This document shows, piece by piece, positions 11,316 through 28,563 of a stretch of 64,000 bases of DNA. Each line of letters opens with the position of its first letter. Position 1 is the stretch's first letter. A model generated the notes under the pieces. It saw nothing but the letters and a program-made list of their open reading frames with translations. It was not told the DNA's origin and ran no database searches. The position numbers and the translations under genes are program-made. Origin of the DNA: Sphingorhabdus contaminans (lineage in GTDB: Bacteria > Pseudomonadota > Alphaproteobacteria > Sphingomonadales > Sphingomonadaceae); contig NZ_VKKU01000002.1 in NCBI RefSeq assembly GCF_007280415.1, positions 310,001 to 374,000 of the forward strand, read 5' to 3'.

Positions 11316-11332
11316 GCTGCAACAGGGCACGG

Positions 11333-13754: not shown

Positions 13755-13790
13755 AAACCGGACTGACCGGACACGACAACATTGCGGACT
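13755..13790 (-). repeat. Junction repeat, island 1 (type-1 half)
   Basis: The minus strand reads AGTCCGCAATGTTGTC, then GTGTCC and AGTCCGGTTT. It is the right border, in repeat orientation, of the unit carrying the 13817-14446 gene. Confidence 0.8.
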
Positions 13791-13816
13791 AATGCTGTGT
13801 CCGTTACCTATTTGCA

Positions 13817-14446
13817 ATGAAGCTTATCGGCAAGTCTGGCTTAAACACCGCTTTGGAGGCATGCTATCTGACATTTGCCGCGCCAACCCCTTCTATAATC
13901 GAAGGCTGCCCGTGCTGCATTTCAAACCGCGGTGTTGATGTTCTGCTCACTACTCCATTGCGCGAGCTAACCGGCCAGCAATTATGGAAGTATGTGTCAG
14001 GCGCGTTCCTCACGATCGGCGGTGAGGAAGACTTCCGTTATTTTCTCCCTCGAATCTTCGACATCTCGGTGCACGACCCTGCTAACGCCAATCATCCCGA
14101 AATCGTTATAGGCAAGCTGCAATTGTCTAACTGGCGGAAATGGCCAAAGACTGAGCAGAGTGTAATCGAAGAGTTTTTGAATGTCTGGTTCGATTGGGCA
14201 ATGGCAAACGACTTGGCAGAGATTGAAGAGGGATGGCTCGGTACGGATACGGAAAGTGTGCTTTGCGGTGCTGCGCGAGCGGGGATACCGCTAAGAAGTT
14301 GGTTAGCTCGCTTAGAAGCGCCGTTCGCTTTGCCTGTGCTTTCAGATTTGAAGAAGAGATTTCCGGGTGAACTGTCGGCTTTTTGGGAAGACGCCCCCTC
14401 CGGTCTGGCCGAGTTGTCTGCTTTTCTCAATCAGTCGAAAAACTAG
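13817..14446 (+). CDS. Hypothetical protein (island 1)
   Basis: A 209-residue protein of no family I recognise. It has no signal peptide or membrane segment. Features are an EGCPCC motif at about residues 29-34, a mixed alpha/beta first half and a helical, acidic second half (WFDWAMANDLAEIEEGW). Base composition is lower in GC than the flanking core genes. It is enclosed by junction repeats at 13755-13790 and 14447-14592 and ends one base before the latter, as expected of a compact cassette-like unit. Confidence 0.7.
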   Translation: MKLIGKSGLNTALEACYLTFAAPTPSIIEGCPCCISNRGVDVLLTTPLRELTGQQLWKYVSGAFLTIGGEEDFRYFLPRIFDISVHDPANANHPEIVIGKLQLSNWRKWPKTEQSVIEEFLNVWFDWAMANDLAEIEEGWLGTDTESVLCGAARAGIPLRSWLARLEAPFALPVLSDLKKRFPGELSAFWEDAPSGLAELSAFLNQSKN

Positions 14447-14592
14447 CGCCCGCTTCCCACAACAAAGCAGACATTCAAGCAATCATTTCACGCCTTCGAT
14501 AGCTGCCGTCTGTTTATCGGGTCAACCAAAGGCAGCTTTCCAACGATATGCCATAAAAGCGGACTATCAGGACACGACAACATTGCGGACGT
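14447..14592 (-). repeat. Junction repeat, long form (island 1)
   Basis: A 146-bp junction. On the minus strand it begins with the type-1 half (ACGTCCGCAATGTTGTCG), passes AAAGCTGCCTTT and GGCGTGAAAT, and ends with the type-2 half GAATGTCTGCTTTGTTGTGG. The same order and spacing recur at 20489-20637. An inner dyad AGCTGCC...GGCAGCT lies at about 14501-14537. Confidence 0.8.
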
Positions 14593-14605
14593 AATCGGCA
14601 ATGTT

Positions 14606-14968
14606 ATGCTAGTAAGCATGAAGATATTTCGACCATTCGGCGACACTAACAAAGCGTTGCTCTTGATTGGGATTTCGGGAGGTGTAAGTTTTGCGCTTCT
14701 TAGCGCACTCATGTTTGCTTTTCGCGCGCAATGCGAGCCAGTCCTTCGTCTCATCTTGGAGCTACTTCCTCGTAAGAGAAGCTTCTACCAATACAATTCT
14801 GAAAGCTATTACATTTGGGCGGTTTGTGCTGCTGGGATGTCCCTCATTTGGATTATGCTTATGGTCGTCGCAATCCTCAACAAGCCGCGAGTTGATCGCA
14901 GAATTGATAAAAATCTAAAGAGTAAAATAAATCAATCTGCACGAGGTGCGCCGCTCGAACCTCGCTAA
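14606..14968 (+). CDS. Hypothetical two-helix membrane protein (island 1)
   Basis: A 120-residue protein with two hydrophobic segments (about residues 17-38 and 68-90) and a strongly basic C-terminal tail rich in K and R. No family is recognised. An internal ATG at 14618 (MKIFRPFG) may be the true start; neither has an obvious ribosome-binding site. The composition is visibly AT-rich. The gene is enclosed by junction repeats at 14447-14592 and 14995-15027. Confidence 0.65.
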   Translation: MLVSMKIFRPFGDTNKALLLIGISGGVSFALLSALMFAFRAQCEPVLRLILELLPRKRSFYQYNSESYYIWAVCAAGMSLIWIMLMVVAILNKPRVDRRIDKNLKSKINQSARGAPLEPR

Positions 14969-14994
14969 ATAATATTGCGTAGTAAATTATGATA

Positions 14995-15027
14995 GAATGC
15001 CCGCAAACCACAACATTCCAGACATTA
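14995..15027 (-). repeat. Junction repeat, island 1 (type-2 half)
   Basis: The minus strand reads TAATGTCTGGAATGTTGTGG, then a short tail ending GGGCATTC. It is the left border, in repeat orientation, of island 1. A partial AACCGGACATTC follows at about 15051. Confidence 0.75.
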
Positions 15028-15202
15028 CCGTGAGTTTATTGACACACTAAAACCGGACATTCATTCAGGCAAATTAGCAACGCGAGCCACTGTGGTCATC
15101 GTTCGACCAATTCCGCACTATCGCTATACCCCCTGACGGCAGCTTGGATTATTTGGGGGCGGCAAGGGGACGGCCTCTTAAAGGAACCGCCCCCGCCTGT
15201 CT

Positions 15203-15754
15203 TCAAATCTCGCGGTCGCCGAACTGGACGAAGTCGACTTCGCCATTGGTTGCGCCGCAGGTGAAATCATCATCCTTGCCGCCGGACAAACGGCCCTCCA
15301 CCCGCCAGCCTTCGCCGTCGCGGGTGACGTTGCGGATTTCCTCGACGCGCGCGCCGTCGCGTTCGGCGGCGCTGGAGCAGGCCTCTACCGCGCTGGCCAC
15401 ATCATTGCGGCCGGCGGCGTCGGGAATGGTGTCCCGTGTGCTGCTTGGTTCCTCGTCATAGGGTCGGTTGTCAGGATAGTTATCGCTGTCGCGGCGGTTC
15501 TTGCTGCCCTTGCTCGCGGCGTCGGCAACAATGGCTATTCCGGCAAGGATTGCGATCCCGGCCAGAATGTCACCGCCATCGACACGGTCGCGATGCCGAT
15601 AGCGGTGACGTCGGCCCCAGCCATTATATTCGCCGGCCGATTTCAATACGGAAGAACCGCGATCAAGCGACACCGCCGCAAAGGCGGGTGCTGCCGACGT
15701 GGCGACGACTGCCGCTGTGCCCACGGCCAGCGCTGATTTCCGAAAATACCCCAT
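15203..15754 (-). CDS. Secreted protein, paralogue of the next gene
   Basis: A 183-residue exported protein with a signal peptide (about residues 1-26, ending AAPAFA). A short hydrophobic glycine segment follows (DILAGIAILAGIAIVADAA), then a charged linker and a C-terminal domain: DVASAVEACSSAAERD, EEIRNVTRDGEGWRVEGRL, DFTCGATNGEVDFVQFG. The same arrangement occurs in 15848-16417, so the two are tandem duplicates. It is a widespread Sphingomonadales-type hypothetical family; location is probably periplasmic. A GC-rich hairpin at about 15154-15192 follows the stop. Confidence 0.75.
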   Translation of the reverse strand: MGYFRKSALAVGTAAVVATSAAPAFAAVSLDRGSSVLKSAGEYNGWGRRHRYRHRDRVDGGDILAGIAILAGIAIVADAASKGSKNRRDSDNYPDNRPYDEEPSSTRDTIPDAAGRNDVASAVEACSSAAERDGARVEEIRNVTRDGEGWRVEGRLSGGKDDDFTCGATNGEVDFVQFGDREI

Positions 15755-15802
15755 ATTTGCCTCCTGTTTGGGGGTGCGAAACTCCCCCCTTCATCCGCGC
15801 TT

Positions 15803-15839
15803 AAAGGGTCCAGCCTGTCGCCAGGCTGAACCCCTTTTT
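15803..15839 (-). terminator. Hairpin between the two secreted-protein genes
   Basis: A near-perfect stem, AAAGGGTCCAGCCTG with CAGGCTGAACCCCTTT around a four-base loop, just after the 15848-16417 stop. On the minus strand it ends CCCTTTAA, so it is an imperfect terminator or an attenuator between the paralogues. Confidence 0.6.
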
Positions 15840-15847
15840 GCCTTTAG

Positions 15848-16417
15848 TTACCGCCAGCGGTCGAGACCGCTATAGTCGATATCGACCACCCGTCCGCGTT
15901 CGACATAGCAGGTGAACCGGCCCTTGTCGTATCCGCGTCCGTAACCGCCGCCATAGCCATCCCGGTCATAACGGTCATACCGGTCATAGCCACGGTTGTT
16001 GCCGCGCCAGCCGTCCTGCACAACAAGGTTGCCCTTGACGCGGTAGCCATAGCGGGTGCGTTCAATGTCGCGGATCTGCGTCACGTCCGACCGGCTGTAA
16101 CGGCTGGCCCAGCGCTCGACGCTGTTGACGCACTGGTTCACCGCCGCACGGCCACCGCCGTAACGCGGGCCATAGCCGTAACCGGCGCGGTTATAGTCAT
16201 AGCGGTCACCGCGGTCATAGCCATAGCGGTCGCGGTCATTGTCCGATGCCGCAATCACCGCAGCAAGTCCGCCGAGCACAACGGCCCCGGCAATGACTTC
16301 GCCTGCGCTGATGCCATCGCGATCATAACGGTCGCGGGCCTGTGCGGGGGCGGATACGCTTACCAAAGCTGCAGCAGCAGCCCCGGCGCCTAGCAAGCTT
16401 TTGGTTACAAAATTCAT
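15848..16417 (-). CDS. Secreted Gly/Tyr/Arg-rich protein, paralogue of 15203-15754
   Basis: A 189-residue exported protein with a signal peptide ending SAPAQA. It has a glycine-rich hydrophobic stretch (AGEVIAGAVVLGGLAAVIAAS), two low-complexity tracts rich in Tyr, Asp, Arg and Gly (about residues 58-95 and 140-165), and a C-terminal core (AVNQCVNSVERWASRY, TRYGYRVKGNLVVQ, FTCYVERGRVVDIDYSG). Two cysteines pair up with those of the neighbour. The ATG at 16417 has AGGAGA 8-13 nt upstream. Function is unknown; an envelope role is likely. Confidence 0.75.
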   Translation of the reverse strand: MNFVTKSLLGAGAAAAALVSVSAPAQARDRYDRDGISAGEVIAGAVVLGGLAAVIAASDNDRDRYGYDRGDRYDYNRAGYGYGPRYGGGRAAVNQCVNSVERWASRYSRSDVTQIRDIERTRYGYRVKGNLVVQDGWRGNNRGYDRYDRYDRDGYGGGYGRGYDKGRFTCYVERGRVVDIDYSGLDRWR

Positions 16418-16607
16418 CTTCAGTCTCCTGTGCCGTATCGGGCTGTTTCCCGTGCGGACAGATGCTGAATAGGTGATTCGTCTTGACCGGATCCTGAATT
16501 GACTTGTCAGCTTTTGTTCAGGAAAGTAATGTGTTTTATGAACAACTCTGTGAAGCCTGCCTTCTATGATGGTTGCACCCCTGCCCAAATACCGATAGCC
16601 TGCGGGC

Positions 16608-16943
16608 ATGAGCGTACAGGGAAGCTGCCATTGCGGTGCGATACAGATCAGGGTGCCACACGCGCCGGAATGGGTGGCGGATTGTAACTGCTCGCTGTGC
16701 CGCCGCACCGCCTGGCGCACGGCCTATTTCCCGCCGGAGCAGGTGACGGTATCCGGCGAGACCAAGGCCTATATCTGGGGCGACCGGATGATCGGAATCC
16801 ACCATTGCCCGACCTGCGGCTGCGGCACGCATTGGGCTACGCTTGGCGAGGACTTCGGCAAAATGGGCATCAACGCGCGCCTGCTCGACGATTTCGACGA
16901 GGGCGCTGTCGAGGTGCGCAAGCTGGACAATGCAGGGGATTAG
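16608..16943 (+). CDS. GFA-family (CENP-V/GFA) zinc protein
   Basis: A 111-residue protein of the glutathione-dependent formaldehyde-activating (GFA) fold. The zinc cysteines are SCHCGAIQI (about residues 6-14), DCNCSLCRR (25-33) and HCPTCGCGTHW (66-76). The family name comes from one enzyme that speeds formation of S-hydroxymethylglutathione; most members have no proven substrate. It is a single gene with no clear ribosome-binding site. Confidence 0.88.
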   Translation: MSVQGSCHCGAIQIRVPHAPEWVADCNCSLCRRTAWRTAYFPPEQVTVSGETKAYIWGDRMIGIHHCPTCGCGTHWATLGEDFGKMGINARLLDDFDEGAVEVRKLDNAGD

Positions 16944-16981
16944 GGAGGCTGTCAGGTGACAGCACTCCGCAGGCATTAAAT

Positions 16982-19159
16982 CTACTTCAACTCCAGCCCC
17001 GTCCATTTGGCGAGGAAGGCGTAGATGTCGGAATATTCCTCGATCAGCTTGTCCGTCGGCTTGCCCGAACCGTGGCCTGCGCGGCTTTCGATGCGGATGA
17101 TCTTGGGCCGCGATCCGGTCTTTGCCGCCTGCAGCGCGGCGGTATATTTGAAGCTGTGCCCCGGCACCACGCGGTCGTCGGTGTCCGCGGTGGAGACGAT
17201 CACCGCCGGATAATCGACGCCCGACCGGATATTGTGATAGGGCGAATAGGTGAGCTGCATCCTGAGGTCCGCCTCTTTTGCCGGGCTGCCATAATCGTCG
17301 ACCCAATAGCGGCCCGCGGTGAAGCGGTCGAAACGGGTCATATCCATCACGCCGACGGCGGCATGGCCCGCGGCGAACAGGTCCGGCCGCTGGTTCAGCG
17401 ACGCACCGACCAATAGACCGCCATTGGAGCGGCCCTCAATCGCAAGCTTGCCCTTGGCGGTGTAGCCCTTGGCAATCAGATATTCGCCCGCCGCGGCAAA
17501 ATCGTCGAACACATTCTGCTTGTTCATCAGACGCCCCGCATCGTGCCAGGGCTTTCCATATTCGCCGCCCCCGCGCAGATTGGCGAGCGCGAAGACGCCG
17601 CCCGACTGGATCCACGCCATGCGCGTCGCCGAATAGGTCGGCGTCTGCGAAATGTTGAACCCGCCATAGCCATAGAGCAATGTCGGCGCGCCCTTGCTGA
17701 GGTCGAGGCCCTTTTTGTGGACGATGAACATCGGGATCTTCGTGCCGTCCTTCGACGGGTAGAAGACCTGCTCGATTGCAAAATCCGCCGGATTGAAGCT
17801 CAGCTTCGGCTCGGCAAAGGGGCTCGACTGGCCCGTGCGGCTGTCAAAGCGGTACACCGCGCCCGGCTGGTTGAAGCTGGAAAAGCCGTAAAAGGTTTCG
17901 GGATCCCCCGGCGTACCGGAAAAACCGCTCGCGGTGCCGATGGCGTTCAATGAGATTTCCTTGGCCGGACCACCGGCAAGATTGGTCATCATCGCCATCG
18001 ATTTCGCGTCCTTGATATAGGACAGGATCAACCGCTCGCCCACAATCTGCGCACGGGTCAGCGTTTCGGCGCGTTCGGCGACAATATCGGTAAAGACCGG
18101 CGTCTTGCCCGACAGGTCCACCGACACAACCTTCAGGCGCGGCGCATCCTTGTTGGTCACGAACCAGAGCTTGTTGCCCATTCCCTCGACCAGTTGCCAT
18201 TCATGCTCCAGCCCCTTGACCAGCGGCGTCGCCTTCCACGACGGTTTCTTGCCGAGCGGCATGATGTGCAGCTCATATTTCTCGTCCGTGCCCTGCGCCG
18301 TGGTGATCAGCGCCCATTTGCCGTCATGCGTGACTTGTGCGCTATGGCCATATTCGGGCTTGTCGGGGGTCGCATAGATGGCCTTGTCCTCCGACTGGGG
18401 GGTGCCGATCTTGTGGTAATAGATGGTCTGGTTGTAATTGAGCTGCTGGAAAGCGGCGCCTTCCTTGGGCTCGGCAAAGCGCGAATAGAGGAAGCCGTCA
18501 TTGCCCACCCAACTGATGTTGGTGAACTTCGCCCATTTGATCTCGTCGGACAGGATCTTGCCGGTCGCGGTGTCGAGCACCCGGATCGTCCGCCAGTCGG
18601 AACCGCCATCCTGAATTGAGTAGGCGAGCAGCTTGCCATTTTTCGACGGCACCCACGCGTCGAGCGCGGTCGCGCCGTCCTTTGCCCATATATTGGGGTC
18701 AATCAGGACACGGTCCTTGCCCGTCAGCCCCTTGCGCACATAGAGCACCGACTGGTTCTGCAGCCCGTCATTTTTCGTGAAGAAATAATTGCCGCCCGCC
18801 TTTTCCGGCAGGCCGAAACGTTCATAGTCGAACAGCTTCTTCATCCGCGCGGCCAGCACATCCTTGCCGGGCAGCGTGTCGAGATAGGCATCGGTCACCT
18901 TGTTCTGCGCCTTGACCCAATCGGCAACGGCGGGGTTGACGCGGACATCATCCTCCAGCCAGCGATAGGGATCGGGAATTTTGATGCCAAAGGCGGTGTC
19001 GACGACATCGACCGTCTTCGTCTGCGGATAGGTCAGGCCGGCCGTCACATCCGCCGCCATATCTGCCCCCATTTCCGCTGTCGCCGCATCATCGGCAAAA
19101 GCGCCCTGCGACCCCGCCATCGCCATCAACGCAACCCCCAACCAAAGTGCTTTACGCAT
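16982..19159 (-). CDS. Prolyl oligopeptidase family serine peptidase, secreted
   Basis: A 725-residue S9A peptidase. The signal peptide (LWLGVALMAMAGSQGAFA) sends it to the periplasm. The propeller domain starts PDPYRWLEDD. The C-terminal alpha/beta-hydrolase carries the triad serine in EGRSNGGLLVGA (about residue 576), aspartate in STADTDDRVVPGHSFK (about 661) and histidine in RAGHGSGKPT (about 694). It cleaves short proline-containing peptides. The ATG at 19159 follows AGGGAATG; a longer frame to 19267 would hide the signal peptide. It is a single gene. Confidence 0.93.
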   Translation of the reverse strand: MRKALWLGVALMAMAGSQGAFADDAATAEMGADMAADVTAGLTYPQTKTVDVVDTAFGIKIPDPYRWLEDDVRVNPAVADWVKAQNKVTDAYLDTLPGKDVLAARMKKLFDYERFGLPEKAGGNYFFTKNDGLQNQSVLYVRKGLTGKDRVLIDPNIWAKDGATALDAWVPSKNGKLLAYSIQDGGSDWRTIRVLDTATGKILSDEIKWAKFTNISWVGNDGFLYSRFAEPKEGAAFQQLNYNQTIYYHKIGTPQSEDKAIYATPDKPEYGHSAQVTHDGKWALITTAQGTDEKYELHIMPLGKKPSWKATPLVKGLEHEWQLVEGMGNKLWFVTNKDAPRLKVVSVDLSGKTPVFTDIVAERAETLTRAQIVGERLILSYIKDAKSMAMMTNLAGGPAKEISLNAIGTASGFSGTPGDPETFYGFSSFNQPGAVYRFDSRTGQSSPFAEPKLSFNPADFAIEQVFYPSKDGTKIPMFIVHKKGLDLSKGAPTLLYGYGGFNISQTPTYSATRMAWIQSGGVFALANLRGGGEYGKPWHDAGRLMNKQNVFDDFAAAGEYLIAKGYTAKGKLAIEGRSNGGLLVGASLNQRPDLFAAGHAAVGVMDMTRFDRFTAGRYWVDDYGSPAKEADLRMQLTYSPYHNIRSGVDYPAVIVSTADTDDRVVPGHSFKYTAALQAAKTGSRPKIIRIESRAGHGSGKPTDKLIEEYSDIYAFLAKWTGLELK

Positions 19160-19266
19160 TTTTTCATTCCCTATCTCGCAAGAATCTGTCGCCCCACGCC
19201 TAATGCGTTGCGCGGCGAAGGCCAATAGTTTCCTTTGGCTTTCCGATGGGGACGGGCTGGTGAACA

Positions 19267-19287: not shown

Positions 19288-19326
19288 GGTGAGTTAACAG
19301 TCGCTGCCCTGCGCTGGCGGATAGGT

Positions 19327-19446
19327 CGTGCCAATTTTTTCGTCAGAAGAAAAAAGAGAAAGAAGGAAAAAAGGAGAGATCGAAACGCATCCGGCCCTTC
19401 TTTCTTCTTCTTTCTCTTCTTTCTTCCATATAATCCCCTGGCACTA
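19327..19446. repeat. GAAGGAAG dispersed element, inverted pair (copy 4)
   Basis: Two copies face each other. GTGCCAATTTTTTCGTCAGA opens on the + strand at about 19327; its partner ends CCCCTGGCAC at about 19443. They are separated by about 20 bp after G/A and C/T tracts. The 19160-19546 stretch has no gene. It holds the CCTCTCC dyad, this pair and the first junction repeat of island 2. Confidence 0.65.
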
Positions 19447-19506
19447 ACCTATAGTCAGGCCCGAACGGGATGAATGGCCGCTTTTATTGTACTGGGCGGG
19501 CAGCGG

Positions 19507-19537
19507 GAATGTCTGGAATGTTGTGGAAAGCGGACTA
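19507..19537 (+). repeat. Junction repeat, island 2 (type-2 half)
   Basis: GAATGTCTGGAATGTTGTGG, then AAAGCGGACTA. A weaker copy (AATGGCCGCTTTTATTGT) lies just before, at about 19474. It is the left border of island 2. Confidence 0.75.
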
Positions 19538-19546
19538 CCCCCGCTT

Positions 19547-19864
19547 TCAAGTTAGGCAGCCAAACACAGCGTCGTGCCAAAACATTTGTGGGTCGCAAAA
19601 CCAGTCTCGGTTGGCTTCCGTCTCGAAGCGAGCGAATGGGCGCATATCGAGGCTGTAACGAAAGCCCAGAGCCAGCAGTTGCCAGAGGTCATCTTTCTCT
19701 GGATGGCAACTCAAACGAACGACTAGTCCCCGCTCACCTTCACCGTTCACGCTAGAAACGCTGGGGATGCGTTCAAGCCATTCAAAATAAGCGCGCTCAT
19801 CGGCTTCATGATAAAAGACAACACCGGAGTTCATGTGTTCGAGTGTGAGTAGATCTTCAGTCAT
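19547..19864 (-). CDS. Hypothetical protein (island 2)
   Basis: A 105-residue soluble protein of no recognised family, rich in aromatic and acidic residues (FYHEADERAYFEWLERIPSV; DEEADRDWF-like FETEANRDWF). It has no signal peptide or membrane segment. It lies opposite to the junction-repeat direction and is closely fitted between the repeats at 19507-19537 and 19889-19953. Confidence 0.6.
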   Translation of the reverse strand: MTEDLLTLEHMNSGVVFYHEADERAYFEWLERIPSVSSVNGEGERGLVVRLSCHPEKDDLWQLLALGFRYSLDMRPFARFETEANRDWFCDPQMFWHDAVFGCLT

Positions 19865-19888
19865 TCGCTCAGGTAACAGACCTGAACC

Positions 19889-19953
19889 GATGTCCGCAAT
19901 GTTGTCATTTGCCGACAGTCCGGTTTAGCGAATTTGCGGTGTTAGCTGACGTT
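19889..19953 (+). repeat. Junction repeat, short form (island 2)
   Basis: The type-1 half GATGTCCGCAATGTTGTC, GCCGACAGTCCGGTTT, then a degenerate type-2 half ending TTAGCTGACGTT: 65 bp in all. The order is the same as at 27829-27896. Confidence 0.75.
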
Positions 19954-20023
19954 TCTTGATTCACACCGACTTTTGAGGATCACCAGACCGCCGCCTCCAC
20001 GAAACAGAATCCAGATTAATTGC

Positions 20024-20428
20024 TCAATTTTGTGTAGCCCTTCGGCTTCCACCTTTTAAAAGCCTGTCTTCCCAATAGGTTATGTTAGCTTCGTCCTCAT
20101 GAACAGAATAATATTGGAGAAGACGGTCCGCAGCTTTCATGTCACCGGCCTCAGCGCGCTTCGTGAGCGCGGTAATTTCCTTTTCTGACCACTGCCAGCC
20201 GACGCGAATGTCCGGTGCAACTGCTAGATCGCTCTCAGGCATGGCCTCTCTAGCCTTTTGAAGCCGCTCAAGCTTCATTGTCGCTTCTTTATCTCCTGAC
20301 TGTGCTTTAATCGAAAGCTGTGCCTCTTCTGTTGCACTAAGGTGCTGGTTTTGCGTGGTGCGGTCCGAACAACCAAATGTCGCACTCGCCAATAGCGCCA
20401 TCGTCGCAGTGGAGTAGAATCGCCTCAT
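20024..20428 (-). CDS. Hypothetical lipoprotein with SEL1-like helices (island 2)
   Basis: About 134 residues from the ATG at 20428 (MRRFYSTATMALLASATFGC), a signal peptide with lipobox ATFGC. The rest is helical, with A-x-x-G-D-x-x-A pairs: KAQSGDKEATMKLERLQKA and RAEAGDMKAADRLLQYYS, reminiscent of SEL1/TPR-like repeats. Family and partner are unknown. A further in-frame ATG lies at 20446. The gene sits inside island 2, antiparallel to the junction repeats. Confidence 0.65.
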   Translation of the reverse strand: MRRFYSTATMALLASATFGCSDRTTQNQHLSATEEAQLSIKAQSGDKEATMKLERLQKAREAMPESDLAVAPDIRVGWQWSEKEITALTKRAEAGDMKAADRLLQYYSVHEDEANITYWEDRLLKGGSRRATQN

Positions 20429-20488
20429 GATTTGAACTTCCTCCATCGACCCGGGCCGCGCACGATAGCATACTATAAGTCGTGAACG

Positions 20489-20637
20489 AACGTCTGCTTT
20501 GTTGTCGTTTGCCGACAGGCCGCTTTTATCTCAATTTGTCGAAAAGCTGCCTTTCATTCAGATGATTAACCAACGACAGGTATTGACGGCGTGAAATAGT
20601 TGCCTGAATGTCTGGAATGTTGTGGATTTCTGACGTT
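20489..20637 (+). repeat. Junction repeat, long form (island 2)
   Basis: A 149-bp junction: AACGTCTGCTTTGTTGTC, GCCGACAGGCCGCTTTTAT, AAAGCTGCCTTT, GGCGTGAAAT, then the type-2 half GAATGTCTGGAATGTTGTGG ending TGACGTT. Its building blocks appear in the same order as in 14447-14592. Confidence 0.8.
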
Positions 20638-20670
20638 ACATTCGACCGTTTCATGGCTATTCATTCCTAA

Positions 20671-21084
20671 ATGCAGAACCGACCCTACAAACTCAGCAAA
20701 CATTCAATTTTGGTCGCGTTAAGATTGCTTGCGACTGCAATAATAACTGCATTCATCGGAGCGGTCCTAAACTTCTTTTACAGGAAGTTTTTCGATCCTG
20801 AAGCTTACGCCGCAGAGCCGAACGTCATCCGGGCAATCTTCTCATATGCTTTGACAATACCTTTCATCCTATTCGCGTTGATAATCTTAGGCCTGCCTAC
20901 CTCCTACTTGCTGCGTCGTTTCAGCTTGGAAAACTGGCTAATCTATGCCCTTTTCGGAGCCGCCCTAGGTGTAGGTTTTCTCTACGCGGTGCTTTCATAC
21001 CTCACTCCTTTCGGAATAGTTGCAGGCGCGATTTACGGTAGCATCTGTGCCATCATTTGGTTTGCCTTGAGCCGAAAGTTCTGA
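20671..21084 (+). CDS. Hypothetical membrane protein (island 2)
   Basis: A 137-residue protein with four hydrophobic segments (about residues 15-37, 54-76, 86-106 and 110-131) and little else; no family is recognised. It is visibly AT-rich: a 60-base stretch at 20701-20760 counts 24 G+C, against 37 in 6001-6060 of the acyl-CoA ligase. Its TGA stop overlaps the first bases of the junction repeat at 21083, so gene and repeat form one compact unit. Confidence 0.7.
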   Translation: MQNRPYKLSKHSILVALRLLATAIITAFIGAVLNFFYRKFFDPEAYAAEPNVIRAIFSYALTIPFILFALIILGLPTSYLLRRFSLENWLIYALFGAALGVGFLYAVLSYLTPFGIVAGAIYGSICAIIWFALSRKF

Positions 21085-21147
21085 TGTCCGCTTTGTTGTC
21101 GTGTCCTGATAGTCCGGTTTCGGTTTAGATTCCCAAATAGCAGACAT
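21083..21147 (+). repeat. Junction repeat, island 2 right border
   Basis: GATGTCCGCTTTGTTGTC, GTGTCCTGATAGTCCGGTTT, then a degenerate type-2 half ending AGCAGACAT. The end of island 3 (28499-28563) closes with the same TTCCCA...CAGACAT wording. Confidence 0.75.
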
Positions 21148-21149
21148 AT

Positions 21150-21340
21150 CCCCCTCTCTCCTTTAGGGGAGAGGTACGTAGTCTTACGGCTTTAGCCGTT
21201 AGACGGAGTGGAGAGGGGGAGGTTGGGCATGAACTTCGCCGTTGGAGCCCCTCTCCAACTGCGCCTAGGCCTTTCGGCCAAGGCTTCGTATCCTCTCCAC
21301 TGAGCCGCAGGCGGCCGGAGGCCAACGGGAGAGGGGAGTC
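21150..21340. repeat. CCTCTCC dyad cluster with 52-bp duplicate
   Basis: Several CCTCTCC/GGAGAGG dyads around a core at 21247-21298 that is identical over 52 bp to 28628-28679 and contains GGCCTTTCGGCC. Both copies immediately follow the right border of a junction-repeat island. Confidence 0.8.
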
Positions 21341-21587: not shown

Positions 21588-22880
21588 CTAAAGCACCCTG
21601 ATCCGCGGCGTCCGGTTTTTTCCGCGCAGCAGCAGTGCCCAGATCGCCCAGACCATGGCGTCGGCGCGATCGGGGCTTTTGCCTTCGCCTTCATAGCCGC
21701 CGGGGACGAGGCCGCTGAGTTCCGTCTCCAGCTCGGGAAATTCACCGGCGAAACAGGCGCGGCCATTTTCGAACAGGGCGGCGACGGGTTCGGCGCGGGC
21801 GGCCTTGCCCACTGCGGCATGGACCAGATCCACCGGCAGGGTCGCCGACGCGGCGAGCAGGACGGTGCGGACCATCGCCCCGCCCTGGTTCCGTTCGGCC
21901 ACCACACGGTCGGCGTCATAGTGGTGCGCCGCCTCGGCCACCGCCCGCGCCCACCCCTCTGGTGAGGCACCGGTCACTGAATGGTCGGCCAGCACATAGG
22001 CGATGCCATCGGCGGCAAGTGCGCATACGATGATGCCGCAGGTGCCATTGGCCGAAGTGGGCGGATCGACGCCGATGACGGTGCGGACAATCTCGTGGGG
22101 CAAGGCCGCCACCCGGCACCGGGCGATCAGTTCCAGCGGCCACAGGCTGCCCTCGACATCGTCGAACAGACGCCCCTCCAGTTCCTGCAGCGCCAGCCGC
22201 GTTCCACCATAATGCGCCTTCATGGCCTCGATAAAGCGCGGGGGCAGATGCGGATTTTCCGACGTTGCCCCGCCCGTCCGCACGCTGTCCGCCGCCTCCA
22301 ATATCCGGCGCAGCAAGGGTAGCGCGCGGGGCGTGGTCGTGACCGCCGCGCGGGGGAACGTCCCCATGCGCAGGCCCATCTGCATATTGTTCCAGCTATC
22401 GACCGGATGTTTCCATTTGGCGAGCTCGTCGGCCCAGGCGAAATGATGCTCCGGCCCGCGCAGCCCTTCGGGATTGGCACCCGAATAGAGTGTCGCCTCT
22501 GCGCCATTGTTGAACCAGAGCGTGCGCTGCGCCGCGGACCATTGGGCGATCTCGCCTTCGGACGCCAGCCGCTGCAGGCCGGACGGCCCTTCGACCATCA
22601 CCCGTCGCGCCTCGTCCAGCGTGGCGGCGACCAGCGCGATGCGGCATCCGGGATGGGCACGCATCTGCGCCAGCACCCATTCGGCCCCGGCCCGCGTCTT
22701 GCCAAAGCCGCGCCCCGCCATGATCAGCCAGGTTCGCCAGTCGCTGTCGGGCGGCAACTGCCCTGCATGATGAAAGGTCCGGAAATCGCTGTTGAGCGCC
22801 AACGTCGTGCGCTCGTCGAGATGCCCGATCGCGGTGGCGCCATAGGGGCCCTGGACGGCGTTGAAAAAACGCTCGCTCAT
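21588..22880 (-). CDS. terL: Phage/GTA-type terminase large subunit
   Basis: A 430-residue terminase large subunit, the ATPase-nuclease that packages DNA into heads of phages and gene transfer agents. The Walker A motif is MAGRGFGKTRAGAEW, Walker B-like FAWADELAKW, and coupling motif VTTTPRALPLL. The RNase H-like nuclease has VIGVDPP (first aspartate), VVAERNQGG and DRADAMVWAIW (last acidic site). The best match by eye is the Rhodobacter-type GTA/Terminase_6 group. The ATG at 22880 overlaps the terS stop (ATGA). No portal, protease or capsid gene follows; the downstream DNA is repeats. Confidence 0.9.
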   Translation of the reverse strand: MSERFFNAVQGPYGATAIGHLDERTTLALNSDFRTFHHAGQLPPDSDWRTWLIMAGRGFGKTRAGAEWVLAQMRAHPGCRIALVAATLDEARRVMVEGPSGLQRLASEGEIAQWSAAQRTLWFNNGAEATLYSGANPEGLRGPEHHFAWADELAKWKHPVDSWNNMQMGLRMGTFPRAAVTTTPRALPLLRRILEAADSVRTGGATSENPHLPPRFIEAMKAHYGGTRLALQELEGRLFDDVEGSLWPLELIARCRVAALPHEIVRTVIGVDPPTSANGTCGIIVCALAADGIAYVLADHSVTGASPEGWARAVAEAAHHYDADRVVAERNQGGAMVRTVLLAASATLPVDLVHAAVGKAARAEPVAALFENGRACFAGEFPELETELSGLVPGGYEGEGKSPDRADAMVWAIWALLLRGKNRTPRIRVL

Positions 22881-23587
22881 TTCTGCGCAGCCCGGGCCAT
22901 GCGTTCGCACTTCTCGATGATTTCTGCCTTCACCTTCTCGACATCGACCGGCGGACGTTTCCGGTCGTAGCGGCGCAGGCGGCCATTCTGACGCAGACGT
23001 GCCTCGTAAAGTTGCGCCACACGGATCGCCTGATCGACTGACATGTCCGCAAATTCGGGCAGCGGCGGTTCCTGTTGCGCCAGCAGATTATTGGCCGAGG
23101 TCAGCAGCGACAGCGCCAGCCGTTCGGTGGCAAGGGCCACCACCTCGTCCCAGCGCTGGTCAAAGGCGGGCCAGATCTTGCGGCGGTTGTAGAGCGCCGT
23201 GGTCGACATGCCGATTGCCCGCGCGGCCTCCCGCACATTGCCTGTTTCGGCGAGCCGAGTGAAAAATTTCTCCTCCACCTCTTCGTTCCAGCGGCCTTCG
23301 CCGGTCGCCATGACGCAGGTCTTCCCGCTGCGCGATGACCGGATGGTGCGCGGGCGACTGTCGTTCAGCGCGACATCTTCGGGCACGCGCCCCGCCGCCA
23401 GCGCCGCCCGCCCTGCTTCGAGCGCGGCGGCCCATAGTTGGGCGAAATGGGGATTGCGTTTGCGGTACTGATAGGCGGTGGCGTGGTCGATACCGGCGAT
23501 CCGTGCCGCTTCGCGGACATTGGCGCAGCGGCCGAGCGCACGCAAAAACGCCCGCCGCCACTCAGGTGGCGTGGTTTTGGAAGGCAT
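22877..23587 (-). CDS. Terminase small subunit-like DNA-binding protein
   Basis: A 236-residue protein made of two similar helix-turn-helix units: LGRCANVREAARIAGIDHAT at about residues 18-37 and AETGNVREAARAIGMSTTA at about 113-131. Each is followed by Y-x-R-R/K and an aromatic helix. A basic C-terminal tail follows (RLRRYDRKRPP). The position directly before terL with a 4-bp overlap makes it the DNA-recognition subunit that loads the large terminase. The ATG follows AAAGGAAA. The internal duplication is unusual for TerS, so the call rests partly on context. Confidence 0.75.
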   Translation of the reverse strand: MPSKTTPPEWRRAFLRALGRCANVREAARIAGIDHATAYQYRKRNPHFAQLWAAALEAGRAALAAGRVPEDVALNDSRPRTIRSSRSGKTCVMATGEGRWNEEVEEKFFTRLAETGNVREAARAIGMSTTALYNRRKIWPAFDQRWDEVVALATERLALSLLTSANNLLAQQEPPLPEFADMSVDQAIRVAQLYEARLRQNGRLRRYDRKRPPVDVEKVKAEIIEKCERMARAAQK

Positions 23588-23648
23588 GGGATTTCCTTTG
23601 CTTTTTTGGGAAAGTCAAAATGCGGACGCTGTTGGTCCACTTTTCGTG

Positions 23649-23677
23649 CGCTTACCTATTTAGCGTCACCATGTCAA
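23649..23677 (-). promoter_or_regulatory. Candidate promoter of the terminase pair
   Basis: On the minus strand TTGACA (23677-23672), 17 bp, then TAAGCG, about 60 bp before the small-subunit ATG. The -35 is perfect and the -10 weak. Confidence 0.35.
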
Positions 23678-23700
23678 GTTTTTTTAACCTATCTGGTTAT

Positions 23701-24804: not shown

Positions 24805-24894
24805 TTTTCACCAATTGCTCATGGGCCCATCATGCTGCTCACCCCCTAGTGTGCCATTCCTTTGCCGACAATCACCAAATGGGGCAAAAATTTG

Positions 24895-25458
24895 ATGAAC
24901 AAGATCGGCGTGGGGGGTCCCGGTCCGGGACGGATTCCAATCTGGCGGATTTTGGGTTGGGGTACCGCAGCGTTGTCGATCTTGACGCCCTGGCTGGCCA
25001 TGCGGTTCAACCCGGAACTGGGGTTGGAGGCGCATGACTTCATCTTTGCCACCGTTGTCATTGGCATCACCGGCGCCCTTATCGAGCTGACCATTCTCCT
25101 CACCGCCAATTGGTTTTCGCGCGCGGGCGGGTTCGTCGCGATCCTTGCGGGCTTTCTGGTCTTCTGGTCGAACCTCGCCGTCGGCATGATCGGCACAGAA
25201 GGCAATAGCGTGAACCTGTTCTTCGGTCTCGTCCTGCTGATCGCCATCATCGGCGCATGGCTGTCCAGCCTCCACCGCAATGTCCTGCCCGCCGCGATGC
25301 TCGCCGCCGGGACCACGCAATGCGCCATCGGCCTGCTCGCCGGCATATGGGGCAGCGATTTCAAGGGCGGGGTGCTGACCGTCGCGATGTCGACATTATG
25401 GTGGATTTCCAGCCTTCTGTTCGCCATCGCCGCCAAGCAAAAGGCGGCGGCGGATTAG
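24895..25458 (+). CDS. Hypothetical multi-pass membrane protein
   Basis: A 187-residue protein with about five or six hydrophobic segments (for example ILGWGTAALSILTPWLAMRF; GFVAILAGFLVFWSNLAVGM). No family is recognised with confidence. The ATG at 24895 (MNKIGVGG) is preferred over an in-frame TTG at 24862. The gene is divergent from the ToxR-type regulator with about 90 bp between, the usual layout of a regulator and its target. Confidence 0.7.
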   Translation: MNKIGVGGPGPGRIPIWRILGWGTAALSILTPWLAMRFNPELGLEAHDFIFATVVIGITGALIELTILLTANWFSRAGGFVAILAGFLVFWSNLAVGMIGTEGNSVNLFFGLVLLIAIIGAWLSSLHRNVLPAAMLAAGTTQCAIGLLAGIWGSDFKGGVLTVAMSTLWWISSLLFAIAAKQKAAAD

Positions 25459-25471
25459 GCCCACCCCGCCG

Positions 25472-26362
25472 TCACGACGCCAGAAAGCGCGCGAGCGACG
25501 AGGTGTCGATGGCGCAATGGCCGCCATAAAGCGGATGCCACTCCACCGAAACGCCCCGCTCCGCCGCCTGGGTAGCAAGCTTTTGCGACCCTTCGAAATT
25601 GCCATAGGCATCGTACAGACCATTTGCGAGATAGAGCGCCGGATAGGTCGCATCGGCCCGCTTCACCAGTTCCAGCGGAGAAATCCGCTTCCACTCCGCC
25701 TCGTCGGCGACATAGCTTTTCGACAATAGCCACACGCCAAAACCGATTTTGGGATCGGCACCCGTCCGTACAAGTGCGGCGCGCATGGCGGACAGGGACG
25801 CAAAGGGCGAGATGGTATAGACCCCGGGGCAGAGCGCGGCGACCTTCGCAAAACGCTGCGGATGGCTAAGGCCCGCGATCAGGACATTCAGTCCCCCCAT
25901 GGACTCGCCCAGCAACATCCGCCGCCGCGGCACGCCGGTGTGCGCATCCATCTCGGGCAACCTCGCCATGAAATCCGCGAGCAGCCCGCTCTCCTCTTTC
26001 CTGCCCTTGGGGACAAGCAGCCAGGTCGGACCGTAGGAGACAACCACAACCACCGGCGGCACCATCCCGCTCTGCTGCCAATAGGCCTGCACCATCGCGG
26101 TCCAGTAAGTGTCGTCGTTCCAGATATGCGCCTCCAGCTTGCGGCCGTGCAGATGATACACCACATCCGCGCTCGTCCCTCCCTTCGCGCGGTAAATGCA
26201 ATATGTCATGGACCCCGCCACATGGCAGCTTTTCTTCGCGGGAATATAGGCAACCTTCTGGCTGCCCTGCGGCGCCGTGATTTTCGTCCACGCATACCAG
26301 CCGCCAAGAAGGAGCAGCAGAAGGATAAGCCATTTCCGATAGGGCTTGCGCAGCAATTGCAT
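25472..26362 (-). CDS. Alpha/beta-hydrolase, esterase family
   Basis: A 296-residue protein with an N-terminal membrane anchor (KWLILLLLLLGGWYAW). An esterase-D-like alpha/beta-hydrolase domain follows: VVVVVSYGPTWLL, the nucleophile elbow LLGESMGGLNVLIAG (serine about residue 172), and a C-terminal histidine in PLYGGHCAID. Substrate is unknown. An upstream in-frame start at 26437 would add 25 basic residues in front of the anchor. It is convergent with the membrane protein gene, 13 bp apart. Confidence 0.82.
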   Translation of the reverse strand: MQLLRKPYRKWLILLLLLLGGWYAWTKITAPQGSQKVAYIPAKKSCHVAGSMTYCIYRAKGGTSADVVYHLHGRKLEAHIWNDDTYWTAMVQAYWQQSGMVPPVVVVVSYGPTWLLVPKGRKEESGLLADFMARLPEMDAHTGVPRRRMLLGESMGGLNVLIAGLSHPQRFAKVAALCPGVYTISPFASLSAMRAALVRTGADPKIGFGVWLLSKSYVADEAEWKRISPLELVKRADATYPALYLANGLYDAYGNFEGSQKLATQAAERGVSVEWHPLYGGHCAIDTSSLARFLAS

Positions 26363-26470
26363 CTCGGCACCGGACCCCTGTTGAAAATGGCGTGATGTGT
26401 GACGGCGGATGCTAATGCGTTTGGGCTTTCGCGGCAAGGCAGGGCGGTGCCGGGGCGGGGCGGGGCGGGT

Positions 26471-26519
26471 GTGGGTGATTTTTTCGCTCAGAAGGAAGAA
26501 GGGGAAAAAGGAAGAAGGC
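26471..26519 (+). repeat. GAAGGAAG dispersed element, copy 5
   Basis: A T-run, TCGCTC, AGAAGGAAGAAGG, then AAAAAGGAAGAAGG. It lies in the 26363-26637 gap, which shows no gene. Confidence 0.6.
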
Positions 26520-26637
26520 GTTGTGGTGTTTCTTGGGCGTCAGGCCCCGCAAAACACATTTTCCCCAACCCGCCGCAAACCTACCCGTCCCGCGTGGATT
26601 ATTGCGGAGCCGATGCCATCAATCTAATGGCTATGAA

Positions 26638-26943
26638 ATGACGCAGGGCACTAAACCGGTTCAACTTCATCCTCCCGTAGTGCGGTCAAGGTTCATGCAA
26701 GTCACCTGCTTCTCAATTGGTGGGATAATATTCTTACTATCCCCGATTTTCCTCGCTGATTGGCGTTTAAGGTCGATGATAGACTGGAAAGAGTTTTGGA
26801 TACTGCTGGTCGTTTTTTGGGCAAACAGCGCGATGCTTATTCGCTCAGGATATTCTCATCGTCGCCTTAGAGCGCAAGAAATGAGCATGTTGGCAGAGCA
26901 TGATCGACGCATAGCCGCCTTGTTCGAGACAAGCGATAATTAG
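26638..26943 (+). CDS. Hypothetical two-helix membrane protein (island 3)
   Basis: A 101-residue protein with two hydrophobic segments (about residues 23-42 and 49-68) and a charged C-terminus (RRLRAQEMSMLAEHDRRIAAL). No family is recognised. The ATG at 26638 is the first in frame after a low-complexity region; no strong ribosome-binding site is seen. It is AT-richer than its neighbours. A junction repeat starts 3 bp after the stop. No clear left-border repeat was found. Confidence 0.6.
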   Translation: MTQGTKPVQLHPPVVRSRFMQVTCFSIGGIIFLLSPIFLADWRLRSMIDWKEFWILLVVFWANSAMLIRSGYSHRRLRAQEMSMLAEHDRRIAALFETSDN

Positions 26944-26945
26944 CC

Positions 26946-27012
26946 TATGCTCTAAATGTTGTCATTTCTAACCAGTCCGCTTTGGCGAATGTGTAGCGGA
27001 ATTGCGAAGTTC
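26946..27012 (+). repeat. Junction repeat, degenerate (island 3)
   Basis: TATGCTCTAAATGTTGTC, then AACCAGTCCGCTTTGGCG and a weakly matching type-2 half to about 27012. Confidence 0.6.
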
Positions 27013-27014
27013 AG

Positions 27015-27266
27015 TTATGTGCCACTGTTTTTGAGTACATCTACATGGTGCCGCATCCACTCTCTCTTGAAGGTTGCATAAGTCTCATTTTTTTGGCGAA
27101 TGTCGGCATCATCTGCCCAGTGGCTTAGTTGTTGCCACGCAGAAAATTCCACCGAATTAAGATCGAGCGGGTTCGGCACAGCCGCATCCAATTCATCTGG
27201 ATCAACGTCACCACCGTCTATGACGTGCTGGAGTGTTTCCAGCAAATAAGATTTCACAGCAGTCAT
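27015..27266 (-). CDS. Hypothetical small acidic protein (island 3)
   Basis: An 83-residue soluble protein of no recognised family. It is acidic at the N-terminal half (GGDVDPDELDAAVPNPLDL) and carries a tryptophan/histidine-rich helix (WQQLSHWADDADIRQ) and a basic-aromatic tail (FKREWMRHHVDVL). It is antiparallel to the other island 3 genes and to the junction repeats that enclose it at 26946 and 27291. Confidence 0.55.
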   Translation of the reverse strand: MTAVKSYLLETLQHVIDGGDVDPDELDAAVPNPLDLNSVEFSAWQQLSHWADDADIRQKNETYATFKREWMRHHVDVLKNSGT

Positions 27267-27290
27267 TGCGCTAGCATATTAAACTACCGA

Positions 27291-27354
27291 AGGTTCGCAA
27301 TGATGACGTTCAATTGCAGTCCGGATTGGCCGATTTGTTGTGGCTAGCTGACAT
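27291..27354 (+). repeat. Junction repeat, short form (island 3)
   Basis: A type-1 half with changes (GGTTCGCAATGATGACG, GCAGTCCGGATT), then the type-2 half GGCCGATTTGTTGTGG ending TAGCTGACAT. Confidence 0.7.
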
Positions 27355-27393
27355 AAAGATGGTAGGGTCCAGTTGTCCGAAGGAGTGTTCCAG

Positions 27394-27822
27394 ATGATTG
27401 GTGTACTTACCGCTCTTTCTCTTGTTGCTGCCCCGCTGGCTCCGCAACCCACAGCACCAGAAGCTACTGCCGAATCATTCCTGAAAGCGTTCAAAGAGAT
27501 GGATGAGGTGCGTTTCGACAATTTCTTCGCGCCGGACGTAACTATGTTTTTTCCTGAAGGCCCATTTCCCGATGACCGGATTGAGGGGCGAGATGCAGTG
27601 CTTGCGGCATTCCACAGCTTCTTCAAATTGGTGAGAGAGCGCGGCAGAACCTCTCTTAACATCGCTCCCGTCGAGCAGCAGATGCAAGTATTTGGCGACG
27701 TTGCCGTGCTCACCTTTGAACTTCACGGCGAAGAGACGATTGGACGGCGTTCCATTGTATTTAGCAGGCTCGGCGGCGATTGGCGCATCGTTCACTTTCA
27801 CGCTTCGGCAGTGGATAAGTAG
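27394..27822 (+). CDS. SnoaL/DUF4440-like NTF2-fold protein, secreted (island 3)
   Basis: A 142-residue protein with a signal peptide (MIGVLTALSLVAAPLAPQ). A single NTF2-like domain follows: AESFLKAFKEMDEVRFDNFF, the F-x-P-E-G turn, IEGRDAVLAAFHSFF, and the closing strands VAVLTFELHG and WRIVHFHAS. Such domains bind small ligands or act as enzymes; no specific role can be read. AAGGAG 9 nt upstream fixes the ATG at 27394. It lies between two short junction repeats. Confidence 0.8.
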   Translation: MIGVLTALSLVAAPLAPQPTAPEATAESFLKAFKEMDEVRFDNFFAPDVTMFFPEGPFPDDRIEGRDAVLAAFHSFFKLVRERGRTSLNIAPVEQQMQVFGDVAVLTFELHGEETIGRRSIVFSRLGGDWRIVHFHASAVDK

Positions 27823-27828
27823 CCTCGA

Positions 27829-27896
27829 GAACGTCCGCAATGTTGTCGTATCCGGAAAGTCCGGTTTGGCCGCTTTGTTGTGGAAAGTAGACGTTC
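27829..27896 (+). repeat. Junction repeat, short form, best-preserved copy (island 3)
   Basis: 68 bp: GAACGTCCGCAATGTTGTC, GTATCCGGAAAGTCCGGTTT, GGCCGCTTTGTTGTGG, AAAGTAGACGTTC. The ends are inverted (GAACGTC...GACGTTC). It shows how the type-1 and type-2 halves join. Confidence 0.85.
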
Positions 27897-27916
27897 GCAC
27901 GGGTAGGCCTCTGCTT

Positions 27917-28477
27917 ATGCGATACATCCTTCCTGCCATCTTGACCTGCACCGTCTTCGTCCTGCCTGCTCAAGCTGAGCCAAACCTTGAACGAGGTTTC
28001 GACGGCGCGCTTAAAGGGTGTGAGGAATGGCTGTTGAATCCCGCAAGTTGGATCGACGGAACGGGTCCCTTCATCAAGGCTGTAGGGCTCGGGGAGCAGA
28101 TGGGCCGTGTTGACAAAGTAGAAGAGGTAAACCTTCCGCCGAAGCCAATGCGACGAGCGAACCACTATTGGCGCATCAACTCCACTTCGACTGCTGGCTA
28201 TGTTCTTGTGGTGTCCGATCAACTGCCCATGTGTCATATCACGGGCGGCGGCGGCACGGATCTGCAGCCGAGTATCCAGACCGTTTTGTTATCGGCGAAC
28301 TTCAACGGTCGCTGGGAGCAACTAAAAACCAATTCAGAAGGTGATTTGGTATCGACAACGTTTCGCAACCGGCAAGAGCCCGCACTGTCCATGATCATCA
28401 GTCGAGCAAAGCAGGCGGGCCAGAGGCTGGATAGAGTTCAGGTGATCGCAACCGCCACTTACCAAGTGGGTAAGTGA
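27917..28477 (+). CDS. Hypothetical secreted protein (island 3)
   Basis: A 186-residue protein with a signal peptide (ILPAILTCTVFVLPAQA). A globular domain follows with cysteines in GALKGCEEWLLNP and LPMCHITGGGGTD, and a final strand block (ISRAKQAGQRLDRVQVIATATY). The layout is common among Sphingomonadales exported hypotheticals, but I do not recognise the family. The ATG begins 20 bp after the 68-bp junction repeat. Confidence 0.7.
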   Translation: MRYILPAILTCTVFVLPAQAEPNLERGFDGALKGCEEWLLNPASWIDGTGPFIKAVGLGEQMGRVDKVEEVNLPPKPMRRANHYWRINSTSTAGYVLVVSDQLPMCHITGGGGTDLQPSIQTVLLSANFNGRWEQLKTNSEGDLVSTTFRNRQEPALSMIISRAKQAGQRLDRVQVIATATYQVGK

Positions 28478-28498
28478 CCTACATCAGAAAGCTAGGCT

Positions 28499-28563
28499 AA
28501 CGTCCGCAATGTTGTCGCGTCCTGATCGTACGCTTTCGAGCCGGATTTCCCATTAACAGACAT
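28499..28563 (+). repeat. Junction repeat, island 3 right border
   Basis: AACGTCCGCAATGTTGTC, GCGTCCTGATCGTACGCTTT, then a degenerate type-2 half ending AACAGACAT. It is followed directly by the CCTCTCC cluster, as at the end of island 2. Confidence 0.75.

Follow-up and report, generated by a model that had tools for sequence, protein, structure and literature searches.

In phage integration, an attP site recombines with an attB site to yield attL and attR. Integrons, according to excerpts of PMC9024848, are only occasionally met in Alphaproteobacteria, and the attC sites of integrons are defined in PMC3053210 by an inverse core, RYYYAAC, and a core, GTTRRRY. Here, we analyze 64,000 nucleotides of Sphingorhabdus contaminans (positions 310001-374000 of contig C2 in a two-contig genome of 3.29 Mb, called G000 below); by "the window" we mean this whole stretch. 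An initial annotation described three islands of small genes separated by a junction repeat, and proposed a cassette-like recombination unit with neither an integrase nor attC. Cassettes shared between genomes and turnover at six of six orthologous loci support this proposal. We consider it likely that each island is an array of mobile cassettes with one gene apiece, and that conservative site-specific recombination of a non-integron kind moves them.

The junctions carry two types of site, T1 and T2, and a unit has the order T2 site, gene, T1 site. We found 96 such units with score matrices (position weight matrices, PWMs), each bounded by a T2 core and the T1 core that follows it on that strand, with a median length of 505 bp; in these units the small gene is enclosed, as had been proposed, between a type-2 half and a type-1 half. 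Since units were defined on one strand, their number alone is circular as evidence on orientation. T2 consists of an outer half, B, and a gene-facing half, P', and T1 of a gene-facing half, P, and an outer half, B'. Because of the breakpoints and turnover described next, we regard the gene with its inner half-sites (P'...P) as the mobile cassette, and the outer B and B' as a resident dock.

Comparisons between genomes demonstrate the mobile unit and its breakpoints, as well as its sharing between species and its turnover at fixed loci. Seven cassettes recur between genomes with identical core-to-core lengths (333, 467, 476, 476, 494, 634 and 1377 bp) and sequence identities, in the same order, of 98.6, 96.0, 87.0, 78.2, 97.3, 80.8 and 93.2%. 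Their immediate flanks are unrelated, with 50-56% identity under forced global alignment. Homology spans the gene and the inner half-sites and falls to background at the centre of the site. All seven have T2 and T1 on one strand. Both inner half-sites travel with the gene: identity in shared pairs versus 3477 other pairs is 93 versus 72% for P and 84 versus 61% for P', and none of 5000 random sets matched the values of the shared pairs. For the outer parts, including the outer flanks LE (left end) and RE (right end), which are themselves repeated sequences, the corresponding values are 65 versus 55% for B, 79 versus 70% for B', 46 versus 36% for LE and 36 versus 33% for RE, and the fractions of random sets as high are 0.05, 0.03, 0.03 and 0.23. 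These are the full-length pairs; we set aside the matches of partial length that involve unit 14, the pair 61/62, whose members overlap, and the matches that link units 45-48, 50, 54 and 59 in other genera. The units of this last group are mostly 137-158-bp repeats without a clear gene, plus one long unit matching them. Because there are small differences outside the arms of the sites (T2 positions +7 to +9; T1 positions -3 and -2), the crossover could lie anywhere within the centre of about 13 bp. That cassettes 96-99% identical sit in species whose orthologous flanks are 79-97% alike suggests that the exchange was fairly recent.

Six loci have both flanks matched among G000 and the sister genomes G003 and G019, and the flanks match at all six: island 2, island 3, L040/L158/L247, L041/L159, L044/L167/L087 and L172/L077/L161. 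The whole interiors gave no match in nine of 12 pairwise comparisons, and in the other three (island 3, L040/L158 and L044/L087) they match at junction sequence only, over at most 139 bp. No gene is shared between the orthologous array interiors of these six loci in the three genomes. The initial annotation had allowed that relatives might carry the same genes at the same sites with no cut at the repeats; sister species lack the same genes at six of six loci. At island 2, the window has three units and G003 has one other unit, and the flank alignments stop within sites. In L044/L167, where G000 has three cassettes and G003 has one, about 110 nt of left flank give a gap-free alignment as far as the core, and it is at the core that the match of the right flanks sets in again. 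At one locus, each of three species carries a single cassette of its own, and two of the three cassettes reappear at other loci of sister genomes. We found no sites in ten rplQ-side regions of other genomes (L214-L223), and the outer genes lie 200-300 bp apart in some of these site-free regions (L215 and L222). As a separate observation, two G000 arrays that lie about 35 kb apart across large rpoB- and rpoC-like genes are both related to a single array in G005, which adjoins the left flank of the one and the right flank of the other (L040/L245-L246, L248), so that a rearrangement has an endpoint at arrays.

The repeat itself is real. Scanning the window for its core with at most three mismatches gave 17 matches versus 2.27 expected, and none of 100 shuffled sequences reached 17. 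Thirteen of these are sites of the three islands; the other four (8588, 15397, 31519 and 42194) lie outside them and look like chance. Eleven junctions had initially been listed as sharing the core. This holds for nine (13755, 14447-14592, 14995, 19507, 19889, 20489-20637, 21083, 27829 and 28499); it does not hold for 26946 and 27291, which are degenerate, with four mismatches. The scan adds the T2 sites at 27325 and 27865. The direction of the repeat is constant within each island, as annotated, i.e., minus in island 1 and plus in islands 2 and 3. The features of the islands are as follows.

13755..13792, minus strand: T1 site (cassette half P and dock half B') at the right end of island 1, PWM score 42
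13781..14463, minus: cassette 1 of island 1, with gene 13817-14446 on the plus strand (209 aa, unknown family, 323 relatives)
14448..14477, minus: T2 site (dock half B and cassette half P'), by PWM
14464..14581, minus: 118-bp spacer between the island 1 cassettes, made of 35 bp plus 83 bp with a degenerate T2
14556..14593, minus: T1 site of island 1, by PWM
14582..15014, minus: cassette 2 of island 1, with gene 14606-14968 on the plus strand
14999..15028, minus: T2 site at the left end of island 1, by PWM
19305..19519, plus: left-end flank (LE) of island 2, common to several array left ends and the orthologous G003 array
19506..19535, plus: T2 site at the left end of island 2, by PWM
19520..19900, plus: cassette 1 of island 2, with gene 19547-19864 on the minus strand, whose start codon is 36 bp from the T1 core
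19889..19926, plus: T1 site of island 2, by PWM
19936..20500, plus: probable cassette 2 of island 2, with gene 20024-20446 on the minus strand; its degenerate T2, 35 bp past the T1 core, is below the PWM threshold and was assigned by eye from the spacing
20489..20526, plus: T1 site of island 2, by PWM
20605..20634, plus: T2 site closing a 118-bp spacer of island 2, by PWM
20619..21094, plus: cassette 3 of island 2, with gene 20671-21084 on the plus strand; it recurs elsewhere in G003, at locus L077, with 87% identity and equal length
21083..21120, plus: T1 site at the right end of island 2, overlapped by the stop codon of 20671-21084
26946..26983, plus: weak T1 site of island 3, score 18
27290..27327, plus: degenerate T1 site of island 3, preceded by gene 27015-27266 on the minus strand
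27323..27352, plus: T2 site of island 3, by PWM
27337..27841, plus: cassette of island 3, with the SnoaL-like gene 27373-27822
27830..27892, plus: short junction of island 3 (T1, 35 bp, T2)
27877..28510, plus: last cassette of island 3, with a gene at about 27917-28477
28499..28536, plus: T1 site closing island 3 at its right end, towards rplQ, by PWM

The overlap of one stop codon with a repeat, which had been reported initially, is thus present at the right end of island 2. In the whole genome, the core pattern has 39 forward and 16 reverse matches, 55 in all, versus 3 and 5 (8 in all) for a control pattern, and the repeats lie in about eleven places, namely the three islands of the window, L039-L045 and L172. 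A profile search, which had been proposed as a check, places the repeat across the genome and the family. Its model, R1, was built from 54 T1 copies and run with stricter filters. It matches 19 of 45 genomes of the genus, e.g., with 25 copies in G003, 20 in G000, 20 in G019, 15 in G005 and 10 in G026, and across the family it finds sites in 30 of 249 sampled genomes and 17 of 96 genera. Arrays are mostly T2-first and T1-last; several loci have no site at one end at the threshold, or have both directions, and sites in both directions occur within some loci of other genomes (L078, L088, L155, L156 and L177).

The distance from a T1 site to the next T2 site is exactly 35 bp in 39 of 57 spacers, and 13 of these spacers have a second site with a score of less than 25, mostly a decayed T2 inside a long spacer. 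The long spacer of 118 bp is 35 bp plus 83 bp, i.e., the same junction as the short form with an 83-bp insert. An element of 146 bp is not the unit, as the commonest junction (39 of 57) is T1, 35 bp, T2. We likewise rejected a 146-bp transposable element: the 35-bp junction is commoner, and it is the gene that moves and not the repeat. Two further repeats accompany array ends. A CCTCTCC-rich repeat with a palindromic middle (window positions 21196-21301 and 28577-28682) comes after islands 2 and 3 at their right ends, as it does in some other arrays, and the left-end flank of island 2 contains a purine/pyrimidine-rich inverted repeat (19340-19450) that is also present in similar left ends.

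Logos of the half-sites read AATGTCCGCAAT for P, AATGTCCGCTT for P' (reversed), TGGCNG-AAT for B and ACTGTCNGGACACG for B' (reversed). Their arms, TGTCNG in P, P' and B' and TGNCNG in B, all point inward toward a centre that is usually GTTGT. Such inverted arms around a short centre are the make-up of a crossover site for a serine or tyrosine recombinase. The G at position +5 of the T2 logo is there by construction, since it was required during refinement of the matrix, and nothing is based on it. Among 79 distinct cassettes, the core is GTTGT-like at both ends in 67, TGGGT-like at both ends in one, and mixed or other in 11; before the removal of loci that had been fetched twice, 74 of 87 were GTTGT-like at both ends. 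Sites with the same arms and a TGGGT or GGGGT centre occur in L175, L176, L085 and L147, and may represent a second specificity or lineage.

Most units (84 of 96, those of 200-2500 bp) were kept for a survey of the genes. A reading frame of at least 45 codons is present in 83 of the 84, with a median cover of 86% of the unit. Two properties that the initial annotation ascribed to the genes hold over all loci: they point either way within arrays, with 48 against the array direction and 35 with it, and their G+C content is lower, with a median of 50% (83 cassettes) versus 58% in the window. The start lies 35-38 bp from the T1 core in 15 of the 48 genes that run against the array (exactly 36 bp in 11), and the end lies within 30 bp of the T2 core in 26; the end of the 35 others is within 30 bp of the T1 core in 24. 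Cassettes leave little space for a promoter. For 68 proteins, comprising the products of most cassette genes and of two genes in the window whose units did not score as complete, Pfam gave 33 families, and 24 of the 25 families listed match a single member; PADLOC gave two, with one member each. The relatives of gene 13817-14446 number 323, of which 120 were listed, and the named ones among these are largely sphingomonads. The gene was found in three of 249 family genomes. Two of these genomes are from other genera (61 and 65% identity), and there, by eye, the gene is flanked on both sides by P- and P'-like arms that have different cores. Gene 20671-21084 has 11 relatives.

The initial annotation had missed the extent of the system over the genome and the family, and also that T1 and T2 look like the paired outcome of a single exchange, each with a dock half and a cassette half. 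In the reading that we propose, a cassette consists of a gene and one half-site per end, P' after the T2 core and P before the T1 core. If its ends were joined in a circle, they would form a 27-bp dyad, TGTCCGCAAT-GTTGTGG-NNAGCGGACA. The chromosomal dock would have the same centre, flanked by B, with a TGNCNG-type arm, and B', whose arm is an inverted TGTCNGGACA. Recombination between P.P' and B.B' would then create B.P', the T2 site, at the left and P.B', the T1 site, at the right, and excision would be the reverse. Docks would be arranged in tandem, most often with a 35-bp spacing, and such tandem docks would explain both this spacing and the line-up of cassettes in one direction, whatever the strand of the gene. 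We infer the circle, the direction of the reaction and the class of the enzyme, i.e., a tyrosine or serine recombinase that perhaps acts in trans. Other joins that this model predicts are present too. A direct P.P' join of two cassettes without a spacer was found once, the same in L085 and L176. A B.B'-like site lies 35 bp after T1 in L162, and B.B'-like sites are present in a few other loci.

It is important to consider several observations that weigh against this mechanism. The B.B'-like sites are few, and none is at a locus proven to be occupied elsewhere. In shared pairs, B, B' and LE are slightly above background, which may reflect similar docks attracting similar cassettes, or chance. 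Strict homology in the overlap is not upheld, because 12 of 79 cassettes do not have a GTTGT-like core at both ends; a 7-bp overlap with strict homology, which we had considered, is likewise not upheld, given these cassettes and the TGGGT and GGGGT variants. Unlike cores would fit a crossover at the edge of the core or a two-base overlap. Lastly, a search limited to the PF00589 and PF00239 families found no recombinase common to the array-rich genomes other than a XerC/XerD-like pair. PF00589 was searched in 45 genomes of the genus (among the matches listed) and in G000, and PF00239 in the 45. Of the six PF00589 proteins of G000, two are XerC/XerD-like, one is an integrase of 412 aa, and the remaining three are integrases or remnants. 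The 412-aa integrase occurs in two of the 45 genomes, its only other genome being G026, and G003, with its 25 T1 matches, has no PF00239 match. When the Xer-like proteins and other integrases of G000 and two small recombinases beside arrays were compared with the array loci, none but the Xer-like pair fitted all array-rich genomes.

Those two small proteins are short tyrosine recombinases of 193 and 210 aa (L085:7784-8362 and L175:4357-4989, in G008 and G011). Relatives of the 210-aa protein occur in loci of G003, G006, G018, G024, G026 and G027, and none is among the six PF00589 proteins of G000. Small serine resolvases also lie a few kb from arrays (L164:5581-6126, L083:3788-4414, L089:4927-5607, L177:8642-9283 and L085:1502-2221); those compared, which leave out the L177 protein, are at most 40% alike.

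The explanation that survives best beside the one we propose, although we regard it as unlikely, is that the host's XerC and XerD act on dif-like sites, as in the dif modules of Acinetobacter. G000 has a pair of tyrosine recombinases of about 300 aa that are XerC/XerD-like, with scores below the equivalog cut-offs, and what seems, from length and pairing, to be a similar pair is listed in array-rich genomes. The length of a dif site is close to the 27 bp of the dyad. However, the pair is also among the listed PF00589 matches of genomes without R1 matches, the two sites of a moved cassette face the same way and have arms of one type, and the half-sites seem to show nothing like the XerD arm. 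A dif scan of G000 found one match with three mismatches, which is no better than its control.

Less probable still is homologous recombination between dispersed repeats, which would swap islands or genes by means of a repeat that has no enzyme of its own. Similarity among the long repeats is about 69-87% across some 136 bp, and the rearrangement between G005 and G000 ends at arrays. Yet the breakpoints of seven full-length pairs lie inside the centre of the site, with flanks at 50-56% (forced alignment), and neither the 35-bp spacing nor the logic of two types of half-site would be expected.

We give an equally low probability to a divergent integron, in which the junctions would be highly diverged attC sites of a cluster lacking an integrase (CALIN), with IntI encoded elsewhere. 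Integron-like features are the arrays of single small genes with diverse accessory roles, the presence of GTT in the core, and a junction length of about 66 or 150 bp, in which the middle part varies, and excerpts of PMC9024848 mention complete integrons in a few Alphaproteobacteria, including Sphingobium. By the tests made here, however, the system is not an integron: it has no IntI, no attC core pair, no supported fold, and a junction that does not travel. None of the six PF00589 proteins of G000 reaches the cut-off of TIGR02249 or NF011946, and the best TIGR02249 score, 99.9 versus a cut-off of 265, comes from a XerD-like protein. In the 56 of 57 junctions that are up to 130 bp long, GTTRRRY is found at the T2 core in none, RYYYAAC upstream in two (one after shuffling), and both together in none. 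Folded as a single strand, a check that had been proposed, the repeat has weak consensus folds (-6.25 and -1.47 kcal/mol), with compensatory changes in 0 of 19 pairs for the long form and 1 of 5 for the short form. These alignments comprise 13 long rows (12 distinct) and 26 of the 39 short junctions; ten of the 13 omitted junctions have a low-scoring second site, and three (two from L175, one from L177) were left out without a stated rule. P and P' do not covary in 84 cassettes, and single-strand recognition was dropped as a candidate on this ground. An attC site travels with its gene, whereas here the junction stays behind, with B' and RE near background in the seven shared cassettes. Crossover at one core only, as in attC, was also rejected, as homology stops inside both gene-facing cores.

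Finally, the repeat might be a plain transcribed hairpin, or an intergenic repeat, that plays no part in gaining or losing genes. This reading, which the initial annotation had raised for the hairpin and which would account for the inverted repeats of the long junction form, is refuted as a complete explanation and has almost no probability left, given site-bounded cassette turnover, breakpoints within the repeat, weak folds and no Rfam match at the junctions.

Beyond the chromosomes of the genus, plasmid pNL2 of Novosphingobium aromaticivorans DSM 12444 has a T1 site after a GIY-YIG gene (a weak match, E 0.1), and the sequence before this gene, read by eye, contains a T2-like site together with a long spacer and a further T1-like site. 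Searching plasmids with the 171-bp junction gave no match at 1e-5; a 31-letter consensus gave 12 weak matches, five of them in Sphingomonadaceae, and a 66-letter consensus gave two, both in Novosphingobium. A phage search gave four chance-level matches, and the dyad pattern gave three stretches in viral contigs, all within reading frames. One stretch found with the T1 pattern is a clear T1-like site at L181:520-550, in an IMG/VR contig of 42.6 kb. On a Sphingopyxis plasmid, a resolvase and a Tn3-family transposase have a P.P'-like dyad with another centre upstream of them (L255:3001-3023). Elsewhere in the window, there is a suhB/mmgR small RNA at 11245-11320 on the plus strand, above the Rfam gathering score, and what we take to be a large-terminase-like gene at 21588-22910 on the minus strand, between islands 2 and 3.

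On balance, we lean towards a system that extends across Sphingomonadaceae and stands apart from integrons and dif modules, with P.P' cassettes, tandem B.B' docks and an undescribed, possibly trans-acting recombinase. If so, single genes are exchanged between species in a group of water and soil bacteria where integrons are rare, and this second cassette system would be a route for alphaproteobacteria to trade single accessory genes without IntI. Its exact boundaries make it directly testable, and it offers a way into the many short genes whose function is unknown. We found no literature on it in a search that was poor in subscription journals.

The arrays resemble those of integrons and CALINs in their tandem single-gene cassettes, little promoter space, varied accessory genes, recombination sites at each boundary, and turnover between related genomes. 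Unlike integrons, they have no IntI that we found, and they show GTTGT-centred dyad half-sites in two classes (dock and cassette), a junction that is left behind, no covariation, genes in both directions, and many dispersed islands per genome. The half-site logos do not seem to resemble dif. In the portions of PMC10132070 concerned, the dif modules of Acinetobacter plasmids are likewise small gene modules with short bounding sites in many combinations; however, the sites of those modules are in opposite orientations, while the moved cassettes here have one orientation. The likeness to phage-type integration lies in two different parent sites, two hybrid products, and dyad arms around a short centre, and the difference lies in the mover, which here is mostly a single small gene without an integrase, and in the many tandem docks, mostly at a 35-bp spacing.

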